DNA from: Brevinematales bacterium
GTDB taxonomy: Bacteria > Spirochaetota > Brevinematia > Brevinematales > GWF1-51-8
DNA: 55,857 nt
Assembly (NCBI GenBank): GCA_013177895.1
Contig: JABLXV010000013.1
Span: 1 to 55,857 of the forward strand
Direction: 5' to 3'
Position numbers and translations under genes: made by a program. The notes below the pieces were generated by a model, which saw only the letters and a program-made list of their open reading frames with translations, made no database searches and had not been told where the DNA came from. Below are positions 2,807 through 35,440 of this stretch, piece by piece (positions within the stretch are counted from its first letter, which is position 1; every line of letters begins with the position of its first letter).

Positions 2807-5083
2807 ATGAAAGGCCACGATGTGAAAGGAAAAACTCTGATGGTGATCGGCGCGGGGCTATTACAGCTCCCGGTTATCCTGAAAGCCAAAGAATTGGGAA
2901 TGGAAACGGTCGTTGTCGACGCGAATCCGAACGCGCTCGGGGTGAAAGCCGCGAATCATTTTATCCGTTCCAGTACCCTCGACGCCGAAAGTACGGTCTA
3001 CGAGGCGGAAAAATTCCACACGACGGTCAGGAAAATCGACGGCGTACTGACGGTGGGTACCGACGCTTCCTATACGGTCGCGATGTGCGCGAAAAAGCTG
3101 GGGTTGACCGGTATCGAGCCGGAAGCCGCGATGCGCGCGACCGATAAGTACTTGATGCGTAAAGCGCTCCGGGCTGATAATGTACCGGTGCCCGATTTCG
3201 AGATTGTCGACGCGTATAACAAGGCTATCGAAATATTCGAGAAACTCGAGGGCGACTGCGTTATCAAGCCGGTCAGCAGTATGGGCGCGCGCGGGGTACG
3301 GCGTATCACCCATCTCGACGACCTGAAAGAGGCTTACGAGCAGGCTAAGACTTTCTCATCGAACGGGAAAGTCGTCATCGAGAAATATATCGAATCACCC
3401 GAACTTAGCATTGACGCGCTGATCTATAACGGTAAGGTCACGATCACGGGTGTGGCCGACCGCATCATCGAGTACGATCCGTTCTTCGTGGAGACCGGCC
3501 ATATTATGCCGTCGGAACTCCCCGAGGAGCAGTTGAGCTATGCGGCGGAAATATTCGAGAAGGGTATCCACGCTATCGGCATCACAGTAGGCGCGGCGAA
3601 GGGCGATATCAAGATATCGTCGAGCGGATGCTTTATCGGCGAGATTGCCGCGCGCCTCTCCGGCGGATTTATGTCCACCTATACCTATCCCTATTCGAGC
3701 GGCGTCGACCTGATGGAAAACGTCATATATATCGCGCTGGGGCTTCCCCCGGCGGACTTATCCCCCAAAAAGGAATGGGTTTCCATCGAGCGTGCGATCA
3801 TCGCCCCTCCGGGCGTCATACAAAGTATCAGGGGTATCGAAGAAGCGAAGAAGATTCCGCATGTGAAGGAGGTCTTTTTCGACGCGAAGGTGGGGGATAA
3901 GGTGATCTCCCCGCGTAATAATATGGACAAGTCGGGGCACATCATTGTCGCCGCGCCGACCCGTCACGAAGCGATTCTCGCGTCCCATGAGGCGGTACGC
4001 GCAATCCAGATAGAGACTATCGAGGACGACGACCAGAAACTCGCCCAACTCGAGATGGACGAATTCGCTAAAACGCAGTTCAACGGGCGGTGCTTCGTCT
4101 GCGAGGACTGCAACGGAGTGCGCTGTAAGGGGATGCTTCCCGGAATGGGGGGCATCGGCACCGGGCTTGGGTTTATCCGGTCGGTGGAACGCCTTCGCCG
4201 TATCAACCTTGTCCCTAATTATATCAGCCCTACGAAGGAGATCGATACGTCGATCGACCTGTTCGGGATGCATCTCGATATTCCGGTGATGCCCGCGCCG
4301 ATAACCGGGGCGATCACGAACCTCGGCGGAGCGATCACCGAGCTCAATCTCGCGCGGTCGATCGTGAAGGGCGCGAACCATGCGGGTACGGTGGGTTTTG
4401 TCGGAGACGGCGCCACCCCGACCAAGTACCGTATCGGGGTGCGGGTGATCCTCGAGAACTTCGGGATGGCGATCCCGGTATTCAAGCCCCGTTTCGATCA
4501 GGAACTGATTACCCAGCGTATCGACGCGGCGCGCGAGGCCGGGGCGCTTGCGGTGGGGATGGATATAGACGCGGCGTCGTTCAAGACGATGGAGATGAAG
4601 AAACAGAACACCAGCACGAAAACGTTCGACGAACTGAAGGAGTTGGTCGATTACGCCGCGGAGATGCCGTTTATGCTGAAGGGCGTATTATCAGTCGGGG
4701 ACGCTAAAATGGCGCTCAAGGCGGGATGCAAGGCGCTTATCATATCGAATCACGGCGGCCGGGTCAGCGATAATCTGCTCGCGCCGATAGATGCGCTTAT
4801 GCGTATCCGGGGGGCGATCGGCGACGATGCGTTCCTGATCCTCGACGGCGGTGTGCGCAGCGGCAGCGATGTCGCGGCGGCGATCGCGTGCGGCGCGGAT
4901 GCTGTGATGATCGGGCGGCCTGTCACTATCGCTGCGGTCGGAGGTCGTACTCAGGGCGTCCGTCAGTACTTCCAACGGATTGCGATGGAATTGAAGAGGA
5001 TGATGACATTGCTGGGGATCAGCGATATAAAATCGTTGAAGAATAATAAAGACGTGCTGTATTATGAAGACCATGTTATGTAA
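2807..5083 (+). CDS. ATP-grasp / FMN-dependent 2-hydroxyacid dehydrogenase fusion protein
   Basis: A 758-residue two-part protein. Residues 1 to about 410 form an ATP-grasp ligase of the carbamoyl-phosphate-synthase/biotin-carboxylase type: a Rossmann-like N-terminus, DKYLMRKALR, VIKPVSSMGARGV and GEIAARLSGGF. From about residue 425 the protein is an FMN-dependent alpha-hydroxyacid dehydrogenase, beginning with a cysteine cluster CFVCEDCNGVRC (Cys429, 432, 435, 440) followed by GMGGIGTG. It continues with the active-site motif ISNHGGRVSD (His649) and the FMN phosphate motif GADAVMIGRP. GGAGGG precedes the ATG. The dehydrogenase half resembles stand-alone anaerobe proteins of about 340 residues; fusion to an ATP-grasp half is unusual. 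Substrates of both halves are unknown. No frameshift separates the halves. Confidence 0.85.
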   Translation: MKGHDVKGKTLMVIGAGLLQLPVILKAKELGMETVVVDANPNALGVKAANHFIRSSTLDAESTVYEAEKFHTTVRKIDGVLTVGTDASYTVAMCAKKLGLTGIEPEAAMRATDKYLMRKALRADNVPVPDFEIVDAYNKAIEIFEKLEGDCVIKPVSSMGARGVRRITHLDDLKEAYEQAKTFSSNGKVVIEKYIESPELSIDALIYNGKVTITGVADRIIEYDPFFVETGHIMPSELPEEQLSYAAEIFEKGIHAIGITVGAAKGDIKISSSGCFIGEIAARLSGGFMSTYTYPYSSGVDLMENVIYIALGLPPADLSPKKEWVSIERAIIAPPGVIQSIRGIEEAKKIPHVKEVFFDAKVGDKVISPRNNMDKSGHIIVAAPTRHEAILASHEAVRAIQIETIEDDDQKLAQLEMDEFAKTQFNGRCFVCEDCNGVRCKGMLPGMGGIGTGLGFIRSVERLRRINLVPNYISPTKEIDTSIDLFGMHLDIPVMPAPITGAITNLGGAITELNLARSIVKGANHAGTVGFVGDGATPTKYRIGVRVILENFGMAIPVFKPRFDQELITQRIDAAREAGALAVGMDIDAASFKTMEMKKQNTSTKTFDELKELVDYAAEMPFMLKGVLSVGDAKMALKAGCKALIISNHGGRVSDNLLAPIDALMRIRGAIGDDAFLILDGGVRSGSDVAAAIACGADAVMIGRPVTIAAVGGRTQGVRQYFQRIAMELKRMMTLLGISDIKSLKNNKDVLYYEDHVM

Positions 5084-14664: not shown

Positions 14665-14668
14665 TTCC

Positions 14669-14863
14669 GGGCTTGATGATGAACAAAGAAATTCAATCAT
14701 TTTCTGTCACTGCGATACCCCGCGCCGCAATATTTTTTGATACGCGGGGCGAAGCAGTCTATTTTATTCCTTAGATGGTATTAAAATGGATTGCTTCTAC
14801 CGCGCTTCAATAAGTTTTGTAACGCGGCATCGCAATGACAAAAACTGTTAGTCAACACGCCCT
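14669..14863. repeat. Palindromic intergenic repeat, full copy 2
   Basis: About 195 bp related to copy 1 at 5101-5306. The right half (from AGATTGCTTC-like sequence at about 14792 through CGCGGCATCGCAATGACA) is nearly identical to copy 1. The left half carries GTCACTGCGA and an extra hairpin CCCCGCG...CGCGGGG. The ends read GGGCTTGATGATGAAC and GTCAACACGCCC. It lies between two co-directional genes and just upstream of a promoter. Confidence 0.8.
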
Positions 14864-14897
14864 ACGGGGAAAATCCGGGAATAATAGAAAGTTTCGA

Positions 14898-14925
14898 TTG
14901 ACATATCATTTCACTGATATACAAT
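14898..14925 (+). promoter_or_regulatory. sigma70-type promoter at the start of the E-set/PP2C gene
   Basis: TTGACA (14898-14903), 16-bp spacer, TACAAT (14920-14925). The -10 box ends only 5 nt before the ATG at 14931, so the mRNA would be leaderless or nearly so. Confidence 0.7.
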
Positions 14926-14930
14926 GATGA

Positions 14931-17831
14931 ATGCCGAAAAATAACAAAAAAGTATCCATCCTTCACCTACTCATTGGCCATACGGCGGTCGCGGTATATA
15001 TCCGTCTCGGCCTGCTCGCGGTGTTTGTCCTTCTATGGTATTTCGGTAACCAGTACCTGAACTCCTTGAAGAAGGAGATGCTCCAACCGCGAACCGTGAC
15101 ATTCGAACTGCCGTTCCCGGACGACATAGAGGGACGACTCGATATCAACACCGCCGGGGACTATGAGGAATACACGATTGAGAGCGTATACCTGTCGGGG
15201 TTCTTCTGCGACTGGGACGCGCGAAGCCCTAAATATAAGATGACGCAGGTCTCGTCGAATAAGTGGGAAGCGCAGATACCGGTCGATTATGGGGACAACC
15301 AGTATAAATTTGTCGTGTATTTCACGGCCGATTCCCCGCAGTCCCAAATCTGGACATACGATAAGAACGCCCCGCAGAATGTGGACGACCAGTTCGGCGG
15401 GATGAATTCCATCATCCATGTTTTTAATGTCGAGGAATTCTCCTTTCTTTTTAATTTTATCGTCATCGGTTTCGTGGTGGTCATCCTTATCTATACCGTA
15501 CTCCAGCCTCTCCTGATAGTCGTACTCCGGCTGAAACTCTCCTTCGGGCTGAAACTGATCATCATGGTATTCCTCGTGGCGTTATTATCGAATACCGTGC
15601 TGATCTATTATAACCTCCGTCAGAAGACCGAGATGTCGAAATACTGGATGCGCGAGAGCGTCAATCTCCTTCATCTCATGCTTCTGGGAAATTGCGTCAA
15701 CTTCGATCAACTGGATGCTCCCGGAACTATCGAAAGAATACATGTAGAGATACAGAAAACATTTTGGCTTGCCAGAGCCAGGATTGAAAAAGACAAGGTC
15801 TCCAGTACTCAGCTGATGTTCCAGAATTTTATGATCGTGGATACTAATTTTAACTATATTTACGGATCGTCGCGTTTTGAAAACGAAGCGATAATAAAAG
15901 CTCAGATAGAACAAGGACTTGCCACCAGTTTCCAGGACTGGCTATACCGGTTTAATTTCCAGGGAATAATCGATTATGCGAGGGAGAATCCCGACGAGGC
16001 GAAAAAAGGGATTTTTATGGCGCTCCCGATAGCCGGGGACGAATATTTCCGGCCCCTGCTCAATCTGGGCTTATTCAGTTATGACTTCTTACTTTATCCG
16101 ATTATGGTCGATAACGATATAAAAGGATATTACGCGGCCGGTTTCTATCCGGTCATTATCAACGACGAGATGCAGAAGAATCTTTTCTCCAACCTGATCC
16201 TTCTTGCGATATCCATGCTCTTCTTTCTGATTCTTTCCCTTAATATCGGCGGATTTATCAGTAAGTACCTGAACCAGTTGATCGAATGGACGAAACACAT
16301 CATCCACGGTAACTTCGACGTCGAGAAGAAAATCGAGACGCACGACGAGATCGAGGTGCTCGCGAAGAATTTCGACGTGCTACGGCTGACGGTGGGGAGC
16401 AACCTCCGCGACCTCAAGCTGATTAACGAGGTGACCGCAGTTCTGAATACGATCAACCAGATCGACGATCTTTACGCCGTATTCCTGTACTTTATCACCG
16501 CGAATTTCGGGCTGGGGTATAACCGCGCGGCGATATTCCTGATCGATAACGAGCAGCTGATCGGGCATTACGCCATCGGTATGCTGGATACCGGCGAGGT
16601 CGAAAAAACGTTCGGCAGTATGGACAATTACCGGAATTACAAGATCGAGATGCAGGAATTTATCGCGAACTACAAGAATTTCATATCACGCACGGAGAGC
16701 GAATTTTACCGCCGCCTGCGGGAGTTCAGGATACCGAAGTCCGAGCCGTCCGTGCTGTGGAATATTATCCAGCGCAACTGTTTCCTTTATGTATCGCATA
16801 CCGCCGGGCAGGAGTTCGAGGCCGACCGCCGGATACGGGATTCCCTCAAGCTCGAGGATTATCTCCTGATGCCCATATTTAAAGGGCAGGAAGTGATCGG
16901 CGTGCTCCTTACCGATAATATTTTCCATGCCCGCACGATCAAGGATCACGATATCAACCAGCTCCAGATTTTATTGAACGATTTTGCGGCGAATCTGGAA
17001 AACACGTACACCATCCTGAATTTGGAGAAACTGGTGCTCGACCGCACCGCCGAACTGCACCAGATCAATGAGGACCTCAAGCGGAAGGACCGGGTGATAT
17101 CCACCGACCTGAATATCGCGAAACGGATTCAGCAGAGCCTGCTCCCGAAGAAGACCGACCGCATGGGCGGGCTGGCGATCGATACCCGTTATATGCCGAT
17201 GTCCGAAGTCGGCGGGGATTACTTCGATATCACCGAGATCAAGGACGGGCTCTACAGGGTGTTTATCGCGGACGCTACCGGCCATGGGGTTCAGGCGGCG
17301 CTGATAACGATGCTGATCAAAGGGGAATACGACAAGATGAAGATGGTGATCGATAACCCCGGCGAACTGATCGAACTGATCAATAACGGGTTCATGCTGG
17401 ACAGCCGTCACCTTTCGTTCTTCTTTACCTGTGTGGTGGCGGATATAAATATCAGGGAAAATAAAGTGACATACGCGTCCGCCGGGCATCCCACGCAGTA
17501 CATATTTTCCGACAGCACGGCCATCAATATGAAACCGACGGGAAAGGTCGCGGGGATTATCGAGGGGACGCCGTATCAGTCGGTCGAGTGCGCATTCAAC
17601 CCCGGCGATAAAATGGTGCTGTTCTCCGACGGGCTATTCGAGGAGTTTAATTCCGAGGGCGAGGAGCTCAGCGAGGAACGGATGGGTGAGATACTGTTCG
17701 GGTTCCGCGATAAATCGCCGAAGGAGTTGAACGACGCCGCGATCGATGAAATGAACAATTTCATCGGCGGAATGGAAATGAACGACGACCTGACAATGCT
17801 TTGTATTTCGTTTGATAAAAAAATATCTTGA
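14931..17831 (+). CDS. Membrane PP2C phosphatase with extracytoplasmic E-set domain, HAMP and GAF
   Basis: A 966-residue sensor phosphatase. In order: membrane helix at about 25-43; an extracytoplasmic E-set/CBM48-like module at about 78-165 (VYLSGFFCDW, then KWEAQIPVDYGDNQYKFVVY); helices at about 172-198 and 207-227; a second extracytoplasmic region; a helix near 425-445; HAMP; GAF (about 510-690); a short coil; and a SpoIIE PP2C domain (about 725-960) with GGDYFD, IADATGHGVQAAL, FSDGLFEEFN and MNDDLTMLCI. It should dephosphorylate a STAS protein in response to an outside ligand. No Shine-Dalgarno is visible and the promoter touches the start codon. The same E-set fold recurs in the exported protein at 18279-20618. 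Confidence 0.85.
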   Translation: MPKNNKKVSILHLLIGHTAVAVYIRLGLLAVFVLLWYFGNQYLNSLKKEMLQPRTVTFELPFPDDIEGRLDINTAGDYEEYTIESVYLSGFFCDWDARSPKYKMTQVSSNKWEAQIPVDYGDNQYKFVVYFTADSPQSQIWTYDKNAPQNVDDQFGGMNSIIHVFNVEEFSFLFNFIVIGFVVVILIYTVLQPLLIVVLRLKLSFGLKLIIMVFLVALLSNTVLIYYNLRQKTEMSKYWMRESVNLLHLMLLGNCVNFDQLDAPGTIERIHVEIQKTFWLARARIEKDKVSSTQLMFQNFMIVDTNFNYIYGSSRFENEAIIKAQIEQGLATSFQDWLYRFNFQGIIDYARENPDEAKKGIFMALPIAGDEYFRPLLNLGLFSYDFLLYPIMVDNDIKGYYAAGFYPVIINDEMQKNLFSNLILLAISMLFFLILSLNIGGFISKYLNQLIEWTKHIIHGNFDVEKKIETHDEIEVLAKNFDVLRLTVGSNLRDLKLINEVTAVLNTINQIDDLYAVFLYFITANFGLGYNRAAIFLIDNEQLIGHYAIGMLDTGEVEKTFGSMDNYRNYKIEMQEFIANYKNFISRTESEFYRRLREFRIPKSEPSVLWNIIQRNCFLYVSHTAGQEFEADRRIRDSLKLEDYLLMPIFKGQEVIGVLLTDNIFHARTIKDHDINQLQILLNDFAANLENTYTILNLEKLVLDRTAELHQINEDLKRKDRVISTDLNIAKRIQQSLLPKKTDRMGGLAIDTRYMPMSEVGGDYFDITEIKDGLYRVFIADATGHGVQAALITMLIKGEYDKMKMVIDNPGELIELINNGFMLDSRHLSFFFTCVVADINIRENKVTYASAGHPTQYIFSDSTAINMKPTGKVAGIIEGTPYQSVECAFNPGDKMVLFSDGLFEEFNSEGEELSEERMGEILFGFRDKSPKELNDAAIDEMNNFIGGMEMNDDLTMLCISFDKKIS

Positions 17832-17840
17832 TGATATAAT
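17812..17840 (+). promoter_or_regulatory. sigma70-type promoter of the response-regulator cluster
   Basis: TTGATA (17812-17817), 17-bp spacer, TATAAT (17835-17840), overlapping the end of the phosphatase gene. It gives the CheY-type gene its own transcript. Confidence 0.8.
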
Positions 17841-17865
17841 TGAATGTATCTAGGGGAGAGAAGCG

Positions 17866-18234
17866 ATGAAGAAAGTATTAGCTGTGGACGACAAACCTAA
17901 TATCATCATGCTGATAAAATCCAAATTGAAGGCGAACGGGTTCGAGGTGATAACCGCCTATAACGGGACGACCGCGCTCGAATTGGCGTTTTCTGAAAAG
18001 CCCGATTTGATATTACTGGATATTATGATGCCGAATATGGACGGGTTCGAGGTATTCCAGAAGCTGAAAGAAAACGACGGCACGAAGGACGTCCCCGTGG
18101 TGTTCCTGACCGCATCGGGACAGCGTTCGGACGAAAGCCGCGCGATGGAGATGGGGGCTAAGTACTTTTTAACTAAACCGTTCTCGCCCAATCACCTGCT
18201 GGAAATCGTGAATAAGGCGCTTAGCCAGAAATAG
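17866..18234 (+). CDS. Single-domain response regulator (CheY-like)
   Basis: A 122-residue receiver domain with no output domain. Acidic pocket VDDKP (Asp8, Asp9), phospho-acceptor Asp52 in LLDIMMPNMDG, Thr in FLTASG and the Lys in LTKPF. AGGGGAG precedes the ATG. It lies between the E-set/PP2C phosphatase and the exported TPR/E-set protein and upstream of two histidine kinases, which are its likely phosphodonors. Confidence 0.92.
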   Translation: MKKVLAVDDKPNIIMLIKSKLKANGFEVITAYNGTTALELAFSEKPDLILLDIMMPNMDGFEVFQKLKENDGTKDVPVVFLTASGQRSDESRAMEMGAKYFLTKPFSPNHLLEIVNKALSQK

Positions 18235-18278
18235 AACAAGTTATCGAAAGAGGGGAATCGCATTGCGAGGCCTGAAAT

Positions 18279-20618
18279 ATGCGTAAAACCGGATTGATTG
18301 TCTTATCCCTGCTGATGCACCTGTCTGTAAGTGTCCGCCTTTTCGGGGCGAATTCGGCCGCGATGGAGTATATCGGGAAGGGGCTCAACCTCCTGAAAAC
18401 CCAGCCGTATCTCGCCGGACAGGAACTTAAAAAAGCGATCGACAGCGCCCCCCAGTGGGACTATCCTTATATCCTTCTCGCGGACTTATATCAGAAAAAC
18501 TCCCTTTTTACCGAGGCGATCCATAATTATGAAAAAGCCGTTAAAATCGGGCTTTCCCAGAAGGGGCTGGAATTTCAGGTCTATTCCGACCTGGGGCTCC
18601 TGTACCTGAAAACGGGGGATTTCAAAAAGGCCGCGGAACTGCTGAAACTAGCCTCCAAGAAAAAGCCCGGCAAGCTCAACGAGCTTCTCGCCGACCTCGA
18701 CGTCATGATACGCGCGCGGGAAATGATTACCAATACTCCCGCACAGGCGGCGGAGATACTCGCGAAGCTGATCGAACGCCACAGCGACTGGCTGTGCCTC
18801 TACGCGATGCAGGCCGAGGCATTGGCGGCGATAGGGGATACCGACGGCGCGGTCAAAGTTTTAAAAACCGCCCTTCAGTTCAATCCGTTACGGAATATCG
18901 TGCTTTCCGACGGGACGTCCGCGCAAAGCAAGGCCGCGTTTTATTTAATCCGCAACCCACTGAATAACGGGGTATGGTCGCTGACAATGACCCTGCCCAA
19001 GGGGAGTTATTCCTACAAGTATTATATAAATTACGGGCTTTCCGGCGAAAAGGCCGTCCTCGACCCGGGGAATCCTCAAACGATGGAAAAAGCCCCGGGG
19101 CTGATAATCAATACGCTTACAGTCAATCACGAATGGGATAAGAAGACGTTCGCATACTCGACATTCCCAACCGACCCGCTTTTTATCGGGTTCGAACGGA
19201 AGGTCGCGGAAATCCGCCTCGCGGCGCTGACAAACCTTTACCCGGTTCCGGGAAAGTACTTTGTCAACCCGGCGGTCACTGCGAAATATACCACCAACAT
19301 CTCGTTTACCTACTATAACCCGAACGCCTACGCGGTATGGGCGGTCGGGACATTCAACCAATGGGGCAAGGAGAAGAATGCCGCGGGTATTGAGGAGATC
19401 TCCCCCAAGTATTATTGGCCGCTGCAGGGGCCGGGGGCGGACGGAGTGTGGACGCTGACGACGACCGCCGACCTCAATGTTCACGATTACGCGTTTCTGG
19501 TCGACGAGGATCATTTTGAGAAAGACCCTGTCATCAACCAAGGGGCGTTTAAGAAATTTACGAACACCCAGCAGATACTGAGCTATCCCAAGTCGGTCAT
19601 CGGCTTCGACGATCTATACCTGGTCGATTTTACCTTCTTCAGGAAGAACGCGACTACGGTATGGATTGTGGGCGATTTCAACTATTGGGGCGGCACCTAC
19701 TTCACGGTGAAAAAAATCCTTCCCGGGTATTATATCGATATGCAGGATCCCGACCACGACGGGGAATGGCATGCTCTGGTATATCTGACAAAGGGAAAAC
19801 ATCTCTTCAAGTTCGTCGTTAACGGTACCTCATGGATAGTCGACCCGAAGCAGAAAACTGACAGCCAGAACCTGAGCTCCGCTAATAATCTCATCATCGT
19901 CGGGATGGAAAGCAATAAACAGGTTATCAAGGAAACGAACAAGGTGACGGTCGATAAGGACGGTAAGGAAGAAGTCGGATTTGTCTATCACAACCCCACC
20001 GCGCAATCGGTGTGGCTGGTGGGGGATTTTAATTACTGGGGCGGCAAGACCACCGATATGCTGGCGCTCAGCCCGGATTATTACTATGTGATGGACGGCC
20101 CTGACCAGAACGGGGACTGGAAAACGAAAACAAAACTCCCGGTGGGCGCGTATTATTATAAGTATGTCGTTAACGGTAAAAATCTGCTGACGGATAAGGA
20201 TAAACCACTGGTAAAGGTGAAACTGGGGGCGGCGGTAGTTTATAATAATGTGGTCTATATCGGGCTGGAGAAGTTTCCCGCCGGCCAGTATTACGGGACG
20301 GACAAGGATTTCGGTATCCCGACTGTGTTTAAATACGTCTCCGATACGGCCGATGTCACCAACGTATGGGTGATCGGGGATTTCAATATCTGGGGCGGGA
20401 AGTACCTGTTTAAGGATTTTATCGACGGGTACTATTATCCCATGAAGAAGTCGGGGGTTTCCGGCGAATGGAGCGTAACGGTGAAACTGCTTGCCGGACA
20501 TTACCAGTACCGGTACGTCATCAACGGGGTAAAGGAAATAACCGATAAAAACGCCCCTGCCACTGAAAAAGACTCTTATAATAAGTCCGCTTCCGTAGTC
20601 GAAGTCGGTAAAAATTAG
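18279..20618 (+). CDS. Exported TPR protein with four or five E-set (CBM48-like) modules
   Basis: A 779-residue protein with a signal peptide (cleavage near residue 24). Helical TPR-like repeats cover about 28-205 (LLADLYQKNSLFTEAIHNYE, YSDLGLLYLKTGDFKKAAEL). Tandem E-set modules of the AMPK/CBM48 type then begin at about 220 (incomplete), 335, 445, 560 and 680. Each has a variant of VWIVGDFNYWGG, a GEW- or GVW-type strand and LFKFVVNGT/YYKYVVNGK. These modules bind glucan chains in CBM48 proteins; ligand binding here is inference. It shares the module with the sensor phosphatase upstream and is followed after 9 nt by a histidine kinase gene. I know no named family with this architecture. Confidence 0.75.
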   Translation: MRKTGLIVLSLLMHLSVSVRLFGANSAAMEYIGKGLNLLKTQPYLAGQELKKAIDSAPQWDYPYILLADLYQKNSLFTEAIHNYEKAVKIGLSQKGLEFQVYSDLGLLYLKTGDFKKAAELLKLASKKKPGKLNELLADLDVMIRAREMITNTPAQAAEILAKLIERHSDWLCLYAMQAEALAAIGDTDGAVKVLKTALQFNPLRNIVLSDGTSAQSKAAFYLIRNPLNNGVWSLTMTLPKGSYSYKYYINYGLSGEKAVLDPGNPQTMEKAPGLIINTLTVNHEWDKKTFAYSTFPTDPLFIGFERKVAEIRLAALTNLYPVPGKYFVNPAVTAKYTTNISFTYYNPNAYAVWAVGTFNQWGKEKNAAGIEEISPKYYWPLQGPGADGVWTLTTTADLNVHDYAFLVDEDHFEKDPVINQGAFKKFTNTQQILSYPKSVIGFDDLYLVDFTFFRKNATTVWIVGDFNYWGGTYFTVKKILPGYYIDMQDPDHDGEWHALVYLTKGKHLFKFVVNGTSWIVDPKQKTDSQNLSSANNLIIVGMESNKQVIKETNKVTVDKDGKEEVGFVYHNPTAQSVWLVGDFNYWGGKTTDMLALSPDYYYVMDGPDQNGDWKTKTKLPVGAYYYKYVVNGKNLLTDKDKPLVKVKLGAAVVYNNVVYIGLEKFPAGQYYGTDKDFGIPTVFKYVSDTADVTNVWVIGDFNIWGGKYLFKDFIDGYYYPMKKSGVSGEWSVTVKLLAGHYQYRYVINGVKEITDKNAPATEKDSYNKSASVVEVGKN

Positions 20619-20627
20619 GAAGGTAAT

Positions 20628-22406
20628 GTGAAAATAAGGATACAGTATAAAATCTTCTTTCTCTTCGTTTTAATTATCGCGCCGCTGATCGGGGCGATTT
20701 ATCTGGGCATCAATAAATTGTTTATAGATAACTTCACGGCTTATCTCAATAGCCGGGTCGAGCGGTCGGTTGAAATTATCGAGAACGCGCTCGATAATAT
20801 GCAGTCGATCGATATCCAGTTCATCAAGGCGTTCGGTACGATCGCGGAGTTAAACCGCGCGCTGGAAAACCAGGAAATCCTGATATTTCCCTATATCCTC
20901 GAAAAATACCGCCCCGATTACGGGTTCGACTGTCTCCAGTTGTACGCCGTGAACGGTGAAATTCAGGCTGAGGCGGGAAAGAGTTTTCAATTCGAGTCGC
21001 CGGGGTTTCTAAAAAGTTTCGGGAAGACGGGCGCGTTTTCGGGGATTGTCGAACGCGGCGGGAAGGTGTATTTCCTCGCGAGCGCGTACAGTATGAACAA
21101 ACAATCCGCCGTAGTCGGGAAAACCCTTTTTGACGATAAGATCGCCGACCGCTTATCGAAGATGATCGACGCGCAGATACTCGTCTATTCCGGCGGCAAC
21201 CTGATCGCTTCCTCGTTAATCAATTCCGCGGAGGGCACGAACTTTATCACGAGCGCGGAGAACCTTGAAATACAGTTTGATTCAGTGACGAACAGGATGA
21301 TCCGGCACGACGAGGGGACGGGGTTATCGGTCGCGCTGTTCCCGCTGAGGGATTACCAGGATAAAATAATCGGGACAGTGGTGCTGGGGACGTCGTCGGC
21401 ATGGCTGCTCGCCTCACAGAAACAGCAGCAGGGGCTGATTTTCCAAATTGTCATTATAGGTATCGTATTCGCAATGGTGCTGGCGTTTATTTTCGCGAGG
21501 GGCATCACCAATCCGCTGCGAAAAATGACCTTCTGGGCGGATAAGGTCAGCGAGGGCGACCTCGATTATACGGTAGAGATACGCGCTAACGACGAAGTGC
21601 GCGACCTTTCCCGCGCGTTCTCGATGATGATCGGCAGCCTGAAGCAGAGCTTCGATAAGATTAATAAGCAGAATATCGAATTGAAGAAATTGGATCAATT
21701 GAAGAGCGACCTGATATCGAACGTATCGCATGAACTGCGCACCCCGATCACGACTATCTTCGGATCGGTCGAATTCCTGCTATCCGGGGAGATTGAGGGC
21801 GACCCGGAATCGGTACGGGAGTTCTACGGCTCCATTTTTAACGATATCCGCGTCCTCAAGAAAATCGTCGATAATTTCATCATGATATCGGTAATCGATA
21901 AGGACGAGTATTATGTTAAAAAGATCGACCTGAAATCTTTCCTGACGGATATCCGCGAACAGATGGCGGGAATCGAGCTGGCGGCTTGGTCGGACGAACG
22001 CGGGGTGAAGGTGGAAATTCCCGCCCTGAAGACGCTGGGTAAAAAGAGCGTCACTTTAGAAACCGACGAAACCTACCTCCGGCATATCCTCTTCGAACTC
22101 ATGCATAACGCCATCATCTATAACAAGGAAAACGGAAGCGTGAAGCTGGATATCGAAATAGGCGATAAGGACTTGTCGTTCATCGTCGAGGATACCGGGA
22201 TAGGCATAGCCAAGGGAGAATCGGCGAAGATATTCGAGCGTTTCTACCGGGTCGAATCCGAACGGACGTATTCCGTATCGGGTATCGGGTTAGGCCTAGC
22301 GGTCGTGAAAATGATCTGCGACCGTCTGAAAATAAGGATAACAGTCGAAAGCGAGCCCGGTAAGGGTACGTTGATGAGGATAAGCGGAATAAAATACTCC
22401 GGGTAA
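20628..22406 (+). CDS. Membrane sensor histidine kinase (HAMP-HisKA-HATPase)
   Basis: A 592-residue kinase. Membrane helix at about 8-28, an extracytoplasmic Cache-like region to about 262, a second helix at about 265-288, HAMP (about 289-342), HisKA with VSHELRTPIT (phospho-accepting His near residue 367) and an HATPase domain with LMHNAIIY (N-box), VEDTGIGIA and GIGLGLAVVKM. The start is GTG, with AGGAAGG five nt upstream. It is tightly linked to the exported E-set gene (9 nt) and to the next kinase (9 nt). The CheY-type protein at 17866 is the nearest receiver. Confidence 0.9.
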   Translation: MKIRIQYKIFFLFVLIIAPLIGAIYLGINKLFIDNFTAYLNSRVERSVEIIENALDNMQSIDIQFIKAFGTIAELNRALENQEILIFPYILEKYRPDYGFDCLQLYAVNGEIQAEAGKSFQFESPGFLKSFGKTGAFSGIVERGGKVYFLASAYSMNKQSAVVGKTLFDDKIADRLSKMIDAQILVYSGGNLIASSLINSAEGTNFITSAENLEIQFDSVTNRMIRHDEGTGLSVALFPLRDYQDKIIGTVVLGTSSAWLLASQKQQQGLIFQIVIIGIVFAMVLAFIFARGITNPLRKMTFWADKVSEGDLDYTVEIRANDEVRDLSRAFSMMIGSLKQSFDKINKQNIELKKLDQLKSDLISNVSHELRTPITTIFGSVEFLLSGEIEGDPESVREFYGSIFNDIRVLKKIVDNFIMISVIDKDEYYVKKIDLKSFLTDIREQMAGIELAAWSDERGVKVEIPALKTLGKKSVTLETDETYLRHILFELMHNAIIYNKENGSVKLDIEIGDKDLSFIVEDTGIGIAKGESAKIFERFYRVESERTYSVSGIGLGLAVVKMICDRLKIRITVESEPGKGTLMRISGIKYSG

Positions 22407-22415
22407 AGGAACGAT

Positions 22416-25043
22416 ATGCTTTTAATGATTATGGATATCACCGTCATTATTCTATTTTGCTTTCTCTGCGTCCGGGTGCTGATGAAGAATCCCCATAGCC
22501 TGGTAAACCGCGTGTTTTTTATCATCATAGTGATGGCCATTCTCCTGATTGCATCGGTCGATGTGATGCTTTTCTCGAACGATCCCGTTATCATACTATT
22601 TTTTGATAGGCTGACGGACTTATTCAGCGCCCTTATCGTCAGCGGGATATTTATTCTCGCGCTGGTTTTCCCTTCCCGTACTCTCAAGCTGACTACATTT
22701 CAGGGGTTATTAATCGTATCGCCCCTGCCTGTTATGGGAACGATTGCCGCTTTTACTCCATGGGTGATCACATCTGCGTGGGTGGAAAACGGGATTCTAA
22801 TCGATACGACAGCGGAGGGGTTTTATATCTGGATCAGTATGATGCTGATCTATGTTTTTACCGCGCTAGTCCTTTTCATACGGAGTTACCGCCAGACCTT
22901 CTATTCGCGTTTCCGCGCGCGTCTGCTGCTGGTGTTTATCGGGATAATTTTCGCGGCGCTTACCGCTCTTTCGTTTTCAGTACTTCTCCCGCAATTCGGT
23001 ATCCCCGATTTTTATCATCATGGGATATCCTTCGCCGCGATGATGTTTATTTTTTCGATAGGGTATGCGATTATATCGGAAAAGCTGATCGATGTGAACC
23101 GGATACTGCTCGACATTATGAAGTGGCTGTTTACCGCTGCGGTACTGATCGGGATAATCTCGCTGGATATTTTCGTAATCGAGCCCGCGCTGAATTTCGA
23201 TCATGCCTATAAGAAGGTTATTCTCTATAGCGTATCCGCGTTGTTTTTCTACGCGTTCATGGTGCTCTTCGTACCGCTGATGGATAAGGTATTCCGCAGA
23301 AGCCATATGAGCCTCCAGAAGGTGCTGGATCAGTTTCTCGACGATCTCCTGAACCTGCATCATACCGGCGAACTGGTGTTAAAGACCGTGTCTACCGTCA
23401 AGACCGCGCTGGGAATTCAGATGATGGATTTCCTGATCGCTAAGGACAATGTATTAAAAAACCTTTCCGCTTCCGAGAAGGATATAAAAATATCGCAGAA
23501 CCTGATGAAGTACTTTATCGAAAAGAACGAACTGATTGATCTGGAGGAGTTTTTAACACGGCAAAGAAAAACGAGTATCGACAGCGTGATGGAGTCTTAT
23601 TTTGAAAAACATAAAGCCGCGGTGATTATTCCGTTGATCTACAGCGATAACCTGATAGGGGTAATTAATATCGGGCATTCCGACGGAGAAGCGCACCTGA
23701 ACTTCAACCAGTATAAATTTTTAAAAGACCTTCGTAAAACTCTTACCATCGCGCTCAATAACGCGATTCTCGTCGATACCCTCAAGGATATGGTGCAGAA
23801 TAAGACGCAGGAGATCCAGAGCCAGAAATACGCCCTCGAGTATGCGCTGAACACCAACGAGCGTGATATGTATATTTTCCGTTCCATCAACGAGATATCC
23901 CGTCTCCTGCTCTCGATCAACTATTACTCCGCGAAAGACCTCTTTCATACGATCGCCGAAATTTTCCCGGGATTTATCAATATCGAGAACGTCGCGGTCT
24001 ACGAGTATTCGAAGAAGGACGGGCTGTTTACCTTTCTGGTCGCGAATAATATCGATCTCAAAGTAGGCGAATTTTCTAGAACCATCGATTGCCGGAAAAC
24101 GGATATTCTCGGGGCTATTATCGAAACAGGAAAATCGGTGTTTGTCGGGGATATTACCGAGAATAAGGACTTCGACCCCGGCGAGTTTACCAAGTATTCG
24201 GCCAAGAAATCCATTATGGGGGTACCGATCAAGGTACGCGGCGGGATTATCGCGGTGGTGCTTTTTATCGATAAAATATCGAACGAGTCGTTCGATAAGT
24301 ACGATTTCTACTTCGTGAACACCGTGTCGCACCTTCTGAACGTCTCCCTCGAACGGGTCGTCATATTCGAGGAAAAATTGAAGTCGGAACGGTTTACCGC
24401 GATCGGGCAGATGGCCGCGAATATCATCCACGATATCAAGAACCCCATGGCGGGCATCCTCGGATTCGCGGAATGCCTGATATCGCCGGAGTTTTCCGAC
24501 GAGGAGAAGGCCGAGTTTTCACGGCTGATTATTTCCGAGACCGAACGGTTGGTCGACCTCGCCTCGGAAATCCTCGAGTATACGCGCGGCGAGATCAAGA
24601 TCAAGAAAGAACGCGTATCGGCGGCCGATTTTATGAAGGATATCGACGCGCTTCTTCGGATGATGTTCAGGGAGCAGGAAATGAACCTGACGATTGAGAC
24701 CGGGTATGACGGCGAACTGAATTTCGACGCTAACCGGATGAAACGGGTTTTTTACAATATCGCGCATAACTCGATGGATGCGATGAAGAAGGACGGGGAA
24801 TTCAAGATACAGGTCTATAAGAAGGATGACAAGGTCGTCTTTTCACTGAAAGATAACGGAAAGGGTATTCCCAAGGAGATCCGCGAAAAACTGTTCGAAC
24901 CGTTCGTCACACACGGGAAATTCAGCGGGACGGGATTAGGCCTTGCGATAACTAAGGAAATTGTCGAACTCCACCATGGGGAGATCACCTTCGAGACGCA
25001 TACCAACTCCGGTACGACTTTCTTTATCGCCTTCCCGGTATAG
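22416..25043 (+). CDS. Multi-pass membrane histidine kinase with two GAF-like domains
   Basis: An 875-residue protein. The N-terminal third has about eight membrane helices of the kind found in 7TM-type histidine kinase sensor regions. GAF-like domains follow at about 300-480 and 490-650, separated by a coiled segment (KDMVQNKTQEIQSQKYALEY). HisKA has IIHDIKNPMAGILGF (His near residue 671). The HATPase has YNIAHNSMDAM, LKDNGKGIP and GTGLGLAITKEI. Last gene of the 17.9-25.0 kb unit; it ends 16 bp from the convergent rlmN. Confidence 0.88.
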   Translation: MLLMIMDITVIILFCFLCVRVLMKNPHSLVNRVFFIIIVMAILLIASVDVMLFSNDPVIILFFDRLTDLFSALIVSGIFILALVFPSRTLKLTTFQGLLIVSPLPVMGTIAAFTPWVITSAWVENGILIDTTAEGFYIWISMMLIYVFTALVLFIRSYRQTFYSRFRARLLLVFIGIIFAALTALSFSVLLPQFGIPDFYHHGISFAAMMFIFSIGYAIISEKLIDVNRILLDIMKWLFTAAVLIGIISLDIFVIEPALNFDHAYKKVILYSVSALFFYAFMVLFVPLMDKVFRRSHMSLQKVLDQFLDDLLNLHHTGELVLKTVSTVKTALGIQMMDFLIAKDNVLKNLSASEKDIKISQNLMKYFIEKNELIDLEEFLTRQRKTSIDSVMESYFEKHKAAVIIPLIYSDNLIGVINIGHSDGEAHLNFNQYKFLKDLRKTLTIALNNAILVDTLKDMVQNKTQEIQSQKYALEYALNTNERDMYIFRSINEISRLLLSINYYSAKDLFHTIAEIFPGFINIENVAVYEYSKKDGLFTFLVANNIDLKVGEFSRTIDCRKTDILGAIIETGKSVFVGDITENKDFDPGEFTKYSAKKSIMGVPIKVRGGIIAVVLFIDKISNESFDKYDFYFVNTVSHLLNVSLERVVIFEEKLKSERFTAIGQMAANIIHDIKNPMAGILGFAECLISPEFSDEEKAEFSRLIISETERLVDLASEILEYTRGEIKIKKERVSAADFMKDIDALLRMMFREQEMNLTIETGYDGELNFDANRMKRVFYNIAHNSMDAMKKDGEFKIQVYKKDDKVVFSLKDNGKGIPKEIREKLFEPFVTHGKFSGTGLGLAITKEIVELHHGEITFETHTNSGTTFFIAFPV

Positions 25044-25059
25044 ATATTTCTGATATGGA

Positions 25060-26169
25060 TTAAGCCTTGCCCTTCCCGATTCTCTCCTGCAGTCTGCTCA
25101 GACCCAACTGTCCGCAGGCTGCGGCGATCTCCCGGCCCTTCCCGAAACGTTCCACAAACGGTATCCCGTGCTTCCGCAGGAATCCCCTGAACAGCCGGTA
25201 TTCTTCGTCCGTCGGCGGGTTGAGCGGGATAACATCCACCGGATTATAACGGATCAGGTTGAGATGGAACTTGATTCCCGCGAGCTCGCGTTTCATGGAG
25301 AGCACGTCGATCTCCTCGGTGTTGATTCCCCCGATGAGGACATATTCGAAGGTAACGCGGCGGTCGATCTGGGTTTGGTAGTAACGTACCGCGTCGAGAA
25401 CCTGCTCGATGGAATAATTCCGCGCCACCGGCATCAGTACTTTCCGCTTTTCCTGATTGGTACTGTTCAGCGATACCGCGAGACGCACCTGCAGGCCGAG
25501 GTCGGCGAAGTCGCGTATTCTATCCGCGATCCCGGCGGTGGAGATGGTGATATGGCGCGCGCCGATATGGAACCCGCCCGAGAAATTCAGGATTTGCAGG
25601 GCTTTGATGACATTATCGGTATTCAGGAACGGTTCGCCCATCCCCATAAACACGATATTCGTGATCGCGCGGGAGGCGGGGTCTTTCTTATATTTCTTCT
25701 TGGCGTAACGGTCGATCAGGAGGATTTGCGAGATGATTTCCCCGACGGACAGGTTACGGGTTAAACCGAGGCGGCCTGTCGCGCAGAAATTGCATCCGAG
25801 GGCGCATCCGATCTGCGACGATACGCACACCGTGAGCCGTTCCGGGCCGGATGTCTCGGTCTCGTCGTCGATCTCCCCGCCCTGCAGGAGCACGCTTTCG
25901 ATATAGTGCCCGTCGAGAGTGCGGAACAGGAATTTGACCGATTCGCCCGAGGAGTCGGTCTGCTCCTCCACCGGTTCGAGGTCGATGATGCTGAACCATT
26001 CCGTGAGCATGGGGCGCACGGTTTTCGGAAGGTCGGTCATATTCTCGAATGAAAATTCCGAGCGGCGGTAAATCCAACCGAATATCGGGTAGGCGCGGCT
26101 GACCGCGACGTTTTTTTCGATCAGTTTATTTTTCAGTTCGGTGAACGTAAAATCGAGCAAATGCTCCAT
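25060..26169 (-). CDS. rlmN: 23S rRNA (adenine2503-C2)-methyltransferase
   Basis: A 369-residue radical-SAM enzyme that methylates A2503 of 23S rRNA and A37 of some tRNAs. The iron-sulfur motif CxxxCxxC is in GCALGCNFCATGR, followed by VFMGMGEPFLN, STAGIADRI, LAVSLNSTNQEKR and the C-terminal family motif ACGQLG, whose Cys forms the transient methyl link. Length is normal. It lies 38 nt downstream of gatA on the same strand. Confidence 0.95.
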   Translation of the reverse strand: MEHLLDFTFTELKNKLIEKNVAVSRAYPIFGWIYRRSEFSFENMTDLPKTVRPMLTEWFSIIDLEPVEEQTDSSGESVKFLFRTLDGHYIESVLLQGGEIDDETETSGPERLTVCVSSQIGCALGCNFCATGRLGLTRNLSVGEIISQILLIDRYAKKKYKKDPASRAITNIVFMGMGEPFLNTDNVIKALQILNFSGGFHIGARHITISTAGIADRIRDFADLGLQVRLAVSLNSTNQEKRKVLMPVARNYSIEQVLDAVRYYQTQIDRRVTFEYVLIGGINTEEIDVLSMKRELAGIKFHLNLIRYNPVDVIPLNPPTDEEYRLFRGFLRKHGIPFVERFGKGREIAAACGQLGLSRLQERIGKGKA

Positions 26170-35096: not shown

Positions 35097-35440
35097 ACCC
35101 CCTCCTTTCGGGCAGGATTGAGGAGCGTACAGCTTTTCATGGGGCAGTCCCCGCAATGAACCAGATGCGTTATCCCGGATAATTCCATAGTATGGGATAG
35201 CGCCGGCGAGGGATTGACTACCTCCAGCCTCTTCCCCGCGCGGGCAAACGAGCGGCAGGCGGAAACGATGACCTGCAGAAAGGAAAGATCCGCTGCGGCG
35301 ATTTCCGACCCTTCGATCTGTAAAGATTCAATCGTGCTATCGTTCAGCAGTTTGAGGAGCGAATTTTTTAACGCGGATGTACGTTCGATGGTTGCATTAC
35401 CGCGAATACGAAAGAGTATCCTTTTGTTAGCGTTTGTCAT
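35093..35440 (-). CDS. STAS-like protein with C-terminal cysteine cluster, in the che operon
   Basis: A 115-residue protein with a STAS-like pattern: a strand FRIRGNATIERTSAL, a central LQIEGSEIAAADLSFLQVI where the phosphoserine loop would be, and a helix SACRSFARAGKRLEVVNPS. The usual D-S-S-G is replaced by A-A-D-L-S, so regulated phosphorylation may be lost or use another residue. The end carries HCGDCPMKSC, a possible metal or redox site. It lies 15 nt after cheY and overlaps cheA by 4 nt, so it is made in step with the chemotaxis kinase. Function unknown. Confidence 0.7.
   Translation of the reverse strand: MTNANKRILFRIRGNATIERTSALKNSLLKLLNDSTIESLQIEGSEIAAADLSFLQVIVSACRSFARAGKRLEVVNPSPALSHTMELSGITHLVHCGDCPMKSCTLLNPARKEGV

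Follow-up and report, generated by a model that had tools for sequence, protein, structure and literature searches.

Does the row of five genes led by a membrane-bound PP2C phosphatase form one system that senses something outside the cell and, if so, what does it sense? An earlier note had raised this possibility from the E-set modules shared by the phosphatase and an exported TPR protein encoded two genes downstream, naming glucans or the E-set protein itself as the signal, and serine partner switching together with a phosphorelay as the outputs. We examined the locus in a 55,857-nt stretch of DNA (hereafter, the window) from a genus placed in the Spirochaetota, Brevinematales (named records GWF1_49_6, DeMMO6_14 and GWF1_51_8), and compared it with relatives in other Spirochaetota.

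Layout and conservation of the five-gene block

The five ORFs lie on the same strand, are separated by gaps of 9-44 nt and face the convergent gene rlmN (25060-26169) at their 3' end (Table 1). All four genomes of the genus have the order DUF58-BatA-PP2C-CheY-TPR/E-set-HK1-HK2-rlmN, with the block split over two contigs in one of them; most of the block proteins are 60-95% identical across these genomes. Judged by its layout, PP2C-CheY-TPR/E-set-HK1-HK2 is one operon-like block, whose genes are presumably co-transcribed. HK1, HK2 and the CheY-like protein carry HisKA/HATPase and receiver domains with the canonical two-component residues (Pfam, motifs). The extracytoplasmic region of HK1 has no Pfam match, and the HisKA_7TM match of HK2 is sub-threshold.

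A promoter-like site precedes the phosphatase gene, and its hexamers, their spacing and the distance to the ATG are the same in 4/4 genomes of the genus. Since the -10 box lies only 5 nt from the ATG and no Shine-Dalgarno sequence is visible before it (14898-14930), the phosphatase mRNA is probably leaderless. Because the phosphatase has this conserved site of its own, we excluded the upstream DUF58 and BatA genes from the system despite their being conserved neighbours.

Two further observations concern the DNA upstream of the block. The gap between BatA and the phosphatase gene (14665-14930) measures 266 nt in the window and 62-68 nt in the three relatives; the extra ~200 nt contain a GC-rich inverted repeat and resemble an inserted dispersed repeat. 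Farther away, at 2807-5083, one reading frame encodes both an ATP-grasp/L-amino-acid-ligase region and an FMN-dependent dehydrogenase domain, an unusual fusion.

Table 1. Genes, domains and modules of the five-gene block, in positions of the window.
Feature	Position	Strand	Details and basis
Promoter-like TTGACA-N16-TACAAT	14898-14925	+	-10 box ends 5 nt before phosphatase ATG
PP2C receptor phosphatase	14931-17831	+	966 aa; ORF position confirmed, Pfam
AMPK-beta/CBM48-type E-set, residues 84-165	15180-15425	+	Pfam, PDB phmmer, Foldseek
Cache-like domain, second extracytoplasmic, residues about 295-405	15813-16145	+	AF2, weak fold match
HAMP, residues 441-485	16251-16385	+	Pfam, below curated cut-off
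GAF, residues 605-687	16743-16991	+	Pfam, below curated cut-off
SpoIIE/PP2C phosphatase domain, residues 772-961	17244-17813	+	Pfam E 1.1e-39
CheY-like receiver, stand-alone	17866-18234	+	122 aa; Pfam E 1.9e-31, canonical residues by motif check
Exported TPR/E-set protein	18279-20618	+	779 aa; Pfam, hydropathy, orthologues 65-92% identical
E-set E1, degenerate, without GxFxxW strand	18933-19130	+	X25-like Pfam match; HMM match to repeats
E-set E2, contact residues lost except first W	19314-19589	+	Sequence comparison
E-set E3, glucan-contact set kept (W470, K511, W519, L532, N536)	19644-19913	+	Sequence
E-set E4, L in place of second W	19992-20264	+	Sequence
E-set E5, E in place of second W	20349-20612	+	Sequence
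HK1: TM, extracytoplasmic region, TM, HAMP, HisKA, HATPase	20628-22406	+	Pfam, H-box SHELRTP
HK2: multi-TM (7TM-like), two GAF, HisKA, HATPase	22416-25043	+	Pfam, H-box IHDIKNP

The phosphatase and the exported protein share one class of E-set

The phosphatase has the order TM, E-set, two TM, Cache-like, TM, HAMP, GAF, SpoIIE/PP2C. Hydropathy places the E-set between the first TM segment and the TM pair, consistent with a location outside the cytoplasm. At the other end of the protein, the catalytic motifs GGDYFD, DATGHG, SDGLFE and DDLT and the metal-binding aspartates are intact (motif check). An AF2 model of residues 1-500 reached a pLDDT of 68; within it, the Cache-like region, which is found in every receptor of the family, is built of blocks mostly at pLDDT 67-92 and matches the WalK receptor model 9a5d weakly in fold.

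The 779-aa protein has one hydrophobic segment, at the N terminus (residues 4-24, hydropathy), as expected of an exported protein. Pfam recognised in it three AMPK1_CBM stretches (E 2.3e-24, over the cut-off), a CBM_48 match (1.8e-15), a partial X25 match and TPRs, and we counted four clear E-sets plus one degenerate. BLAST clearly shows modules E3, E4 and E5 to be repeats of one another (E 1e-14 to 1e-17), to which E2 is related. The AF2 model of this protein, made from a three-sequence input, had a pLDDT of 45, and the modules were therefore judged by sequence alone.

Do these modules and the receptor E-set belong together? Pairwise BLAST between the two gave nothing significant (best E 0.14). 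The receptor module has diverged too far for that comparison, so we based the common class on profiles, PDB sequences and fold. Residues 84-165 of the receptor match Pfam AMPK1_CBM with an E of 1.6e-4, below the curated cut-off, and a phmmer search of PDB sequences found 1z0n (AMPK beta) with an E of 7e-4. When the AF2 model of the receptor was searched with Foldseek, the first 28 PDB matches were AMPK or SNF1 beta domains, cyclodextrin complexes included (E from 6e-4, target TM up to 0.71). The receptor E-set and the modules of the TPR protein are thus one fold family, and the claim that both proteins carry E-sets was confirmed; neither unrelated folds nor an unconserved gene order, which together would have spoken against the proposal, was found.

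Glucan-contact residues are conserved in most receptors

In AMPK, cyclodextrin is stacked on W100 and W133, hydrogen-bonded to K126 and N150, and touches L146 and T148 (PMC9788615), and in the plant CBM48 protein PTST the two tryptophans are likewise required for starch binding (PMC4339375). The receptor equivalents of AMPK W100, K126, W133, L146, T148 and N150 are W95, K126, W141, F155, G157 and N159, so that W100, K126, W133 and N150 are identical in the window receptor, as they are in module E3. Among the modules of the TPR protein the contact set is complete in E3 only, being incomplete in E2, E4 and E5, and that of E3 is conserved in four orthologues (with K to R in G003).

The W, K, W and N are also identical in the receptors of the genus, in a paralogue from G002 and in all LuxR-type receptors (described below), at an overall identity of only about 20%. 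When the E-sets of five diverged receptors were aligned, 11 of 88 columns were invariant, all four glucan contacts among them. In the G025 and G037 receptors, three of these contacts are replaced (K to R, W to F, N to R), and glucan binding is therefore not universal in the family; the lipoproteins encoded beside these two receptors keep W, K or R, W and L.

The contact set is not a default of the E-set fold, since the strict set was present in only 35 of the 156 E-set modules that we collected from the phylum (about 22%; some of the modules are duplicates). As most of them are without it, many E-sets of the phylum may serve something other than glucan binding. Many spirochete genomes (L101, L111, L114, L115, L022, L023 and others) also encode ~240-aa proteins with two E-sets, in which the glucan contacts are mostly lost.

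Receptor relatives exchange outputs and adjoin an alpha-amylase gene

Across about 420 Spirochaetota genomes we counted 12 occurrences of the receptor module (TM, E-set, two TM, Cache-like, TM). Searching 393 genomes of the phylum with a profile of the sensor half gave full-length matches to only 9 proteins. A scan of named genomes with a single HAMP-region pattern, which was also the search made beyond the Spirochaetota, returned only the genus, its paralogue and G025/G037; the LuxR-type receptors came from whole-genome searches. In the order of G380 these searches added three receptors, of which one is truncated by a contig end; in the orders of G025 and G083 they added none.

Three outputs follow the module: PP2C in the genus, G025 and G037; HisKA-HATPase-receiver-PP2C in one chain; and a C-terminal LuxR/GerE helix-turn-helix DNA-binding domain in G083, G380, G401 and G406. 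The host of the G083 receptor is less certain, because the gene lies on a 3.4-kb contig and the genome has 6% contamination. The fused chain is the G002 paralogue (G002:C51, L074 792-4289), whose 1165 aa comprise the E-set receptor, HAMP, HisKA, HATPase, receiver and PP2C; its gene is two genes from that of a lipoprotein with two CBM21 starch-binding modules.

Directly 3' of the LuxR-type receptor gene in G380, G401 and G406 lies the same gene, for an exported GH13 alpha-amylase of 927-934 aa with Glucodextran_C. This is the case in 3/3 LuxR-type genes whose downstream sequence is known, and the genes upstream of the receptor in G401 differ from those in G380 and G406. In G380, a pullulanase and CBM48-type exported proteins are encoded within about 10 kb of the receptor. 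No E-set gene is directly adjacent to the LuxR-type genes, only the amylase. In G025 and G037, the gene for the small E-set lipoprotein lies directly upstream of the receptor gene, and the ORFs overlap as called.

Genome background

E-sets are common in this phylum: the domain is present in 31/31 genomes searched nearby, and 17 ORFs of the host genome carry it at E up to 1e-3. With 16 other genes among roughly 3,400, the chance of finding another E-set gene within two genes is about 2%, a rough estimate. We nevertheless rejected E-set sharing alone as proof of one system, given how frequent these domains are in genome and phylum. The host genome also has about 29 GH13 ORFs, several of them longer than 1000 aa and with lipoprotein-type signals, and, with 17 E-set ORFs present as well, chance should bring some members of the two groups close together; the five-gene operon of the window genus contains no amylase gene. 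Some E-set lipoproteins adjoin MalK-type or solute-binding sugar transport genes.

Other arrangements were seen along the way. Three tandem lipoprotein-type ORFs of about 1200-1270 aa have GH13 matches (L227 2709-13806, G000:C7). An ECF sigma factor, a small hypothetical protein and an exported E-set protein are encoded in a row (L162 549-2213, G000:C28), a further case of an E-set gene next to a signalling gene, and about four small E-set proteins are encoded in tandem next to an RND-type pump gene (L079 711-3045, L161 3892-5776).

The cluster contains no STAS or anti-sigma gene, and the nearest STAS gene on the 3' side is at 35156-35428. Since the genome has 34 SpoIIE matches and 17 STAS, many PP2C genes must be orphans, and a cluster without a STAS partner is for that reason compatible with a partner-switching role.

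A putative receptor for external alpha-glucans

On balance, we lean towards the view that the phosphatase is a receptor for external alpha-glucans that acts through PP2C switching, with the TPR/E-set protein as a partner and the kinases and CheY as a second input. The conserved contact residues, and the exported alpha-amylase encoded beside relatives of the receptor, make glucan sensing the best guess, and starch-like sugars outside the cell are probably what the receptor family senses. In this model, alpha-1,4-glucans (pieces of starch, glycogen or maltodextrin) would bind the AMPK-type E-set in the periplasm, and the signal would pass through the Cache-like domain, the last TM helix and HAMP to switch the PP2C domain, whose target would probably be a STAS protein encoded elsewhere. 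The TPR/E-set protein would be a periplasmic glucan-binding partner or scaffold in which E3 holds the glucan, while the TPR and the degenerate modules would dock to the receptor or the envelope. HK1 and HK2 would act through CheY on the same phosphatase by a putative CheY-to-PP2C contact, and a single path for kinase, receiver and PP2C is best supported by the fused HisKA-HATPase-receiver-PP2C paralogue. The earlier idea of a glucan signal from outside thus stands as a best guess; of its two outputs, the link between phosphatase and phosphorelay gained backing from the paralogue, and for serine partner switching the cluster offers neither a STAS nor an anti-sigma gene.

Could the receptor E-set instead bind no sugar and recognise the TPR/E-set protein by module contact, leaving the latter alone to meet the glucan or another ligand? 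The exported E-set protein in the genus operon and, in a distant lineage, the E-set lipoprotein gene immediately upstream of the receptor gene would suit such an arrangement, all the more as the G025/G037 receptors have lost the contacts that their neighbours retain. However, in the genus and in all LuxR-type proteins the receptor itself has the complete contact set, and what directly adjoins the LuxR-type genes is an amylase gene rather than an E-set gene, which makes this reading unlikely. It is quite improbable, in our view, that the E-sets are ligand-free spacers or envelope anchors, with sensing left to the Cache-like domain and the TPR protein as an envelope scaffold. CBM48-type E-sets frequently have a structural role in amylases, E2, E4 and E5 are without the full contact residues and every receptor has the Cache-like region; yet the contacts are among the best-conserved positions of receptors that are only about 20% identical, and the operon linkage of relatives to amylase also argues against mere spacers.

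That the five genes are neighbours without a common function, with E-set sharing a by-product of a large family, would be in keeping with 17 E-set ORFs in the genome and with E-set genes in many contexts. We hold this to be very improbable in view of the 9-44 nt spacing, the order retained down to 60-65% identity, the like pairing in separate lineages and the fused HK-receiver-PP2C paralogue. We retain the alpha-glucan receptor as the preferred reading. A bolder extension, in which a whole transmembrane family senses alpha-glucan by the AMPK-type fold, swaps its outputs and has exported E-set proteins present the glucan by module contact, is tentative and rather doubtful.

Relation to known systems

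Most bacterial PP2C receptors have unknown signals, and the contact residues together with the amylase linkage give one family a specific, testable ligand class. If the proposal is true, bacteria would be shown to use the AMPK-type glycogen-binding fold for sensing outside the cell, coupled to three kinds of output, and the large E-set protein families of spirochetes, so far unexplained, would in part gain a function. We found no publication on an AMPK-type E-set/CBM48 receptor in the open-licence literature.

External sensors of the CBM type are already known from the RsgI anti-sigma factors of Clostridium thermocellum, in which an extracellular CBM acts as polysaccharide sensor (PMC4711584). 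The likeness lies in a carbohydrate-binding module outside the membrane that is coupled to the control of gene expression and to degradative enzymes. RsgI, however, binds the sigma-I factor directly and has CBM3, PA14 or GH10 sensors, whereas the receptor described here has an AMPK/CBM48 E-set plus a Cache-like domain, with PP2C, HK-REC-PP2C or LuxR HTH outputs; by Pfam, the RsgI N-terminal domain and a cognate sigma gene are absent from the cluster. The 7TM receptors of Leptospira (7TMR-DISM type) were proposed as carbohydrate sensors (PMC1592074) and are likewise spirochete membrane receptors with varied cytoplasmic outputs. Our receptor differs from them in its extracytoplasmic domain and in having four TM segments in place of seven, and gave no Pfam match to 7TMR-DISM or DISMED domains. 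By its predicted domain content, it is neither an RsgI nor a 7TMR-DISM.

With the partner-switching phosphatases of the RsbU/RsbP/SpoIIE type it shares a catalytic domain with intact motifs and an N-terminal sensor region, but its input is an extracytoplasmic E-set plus a Cache-like domain and no STAS/anti-sigma gene lies alongside. In fold and in glucan-contact residues, its E-set resembles the glycogen-binding domain of AMPK beta (1z0n, 4yee). AMPK beta is an intracellular regulatory subunit of eukaryotes, whereas here the domain is fused to a bacterial transmembrane receptor.
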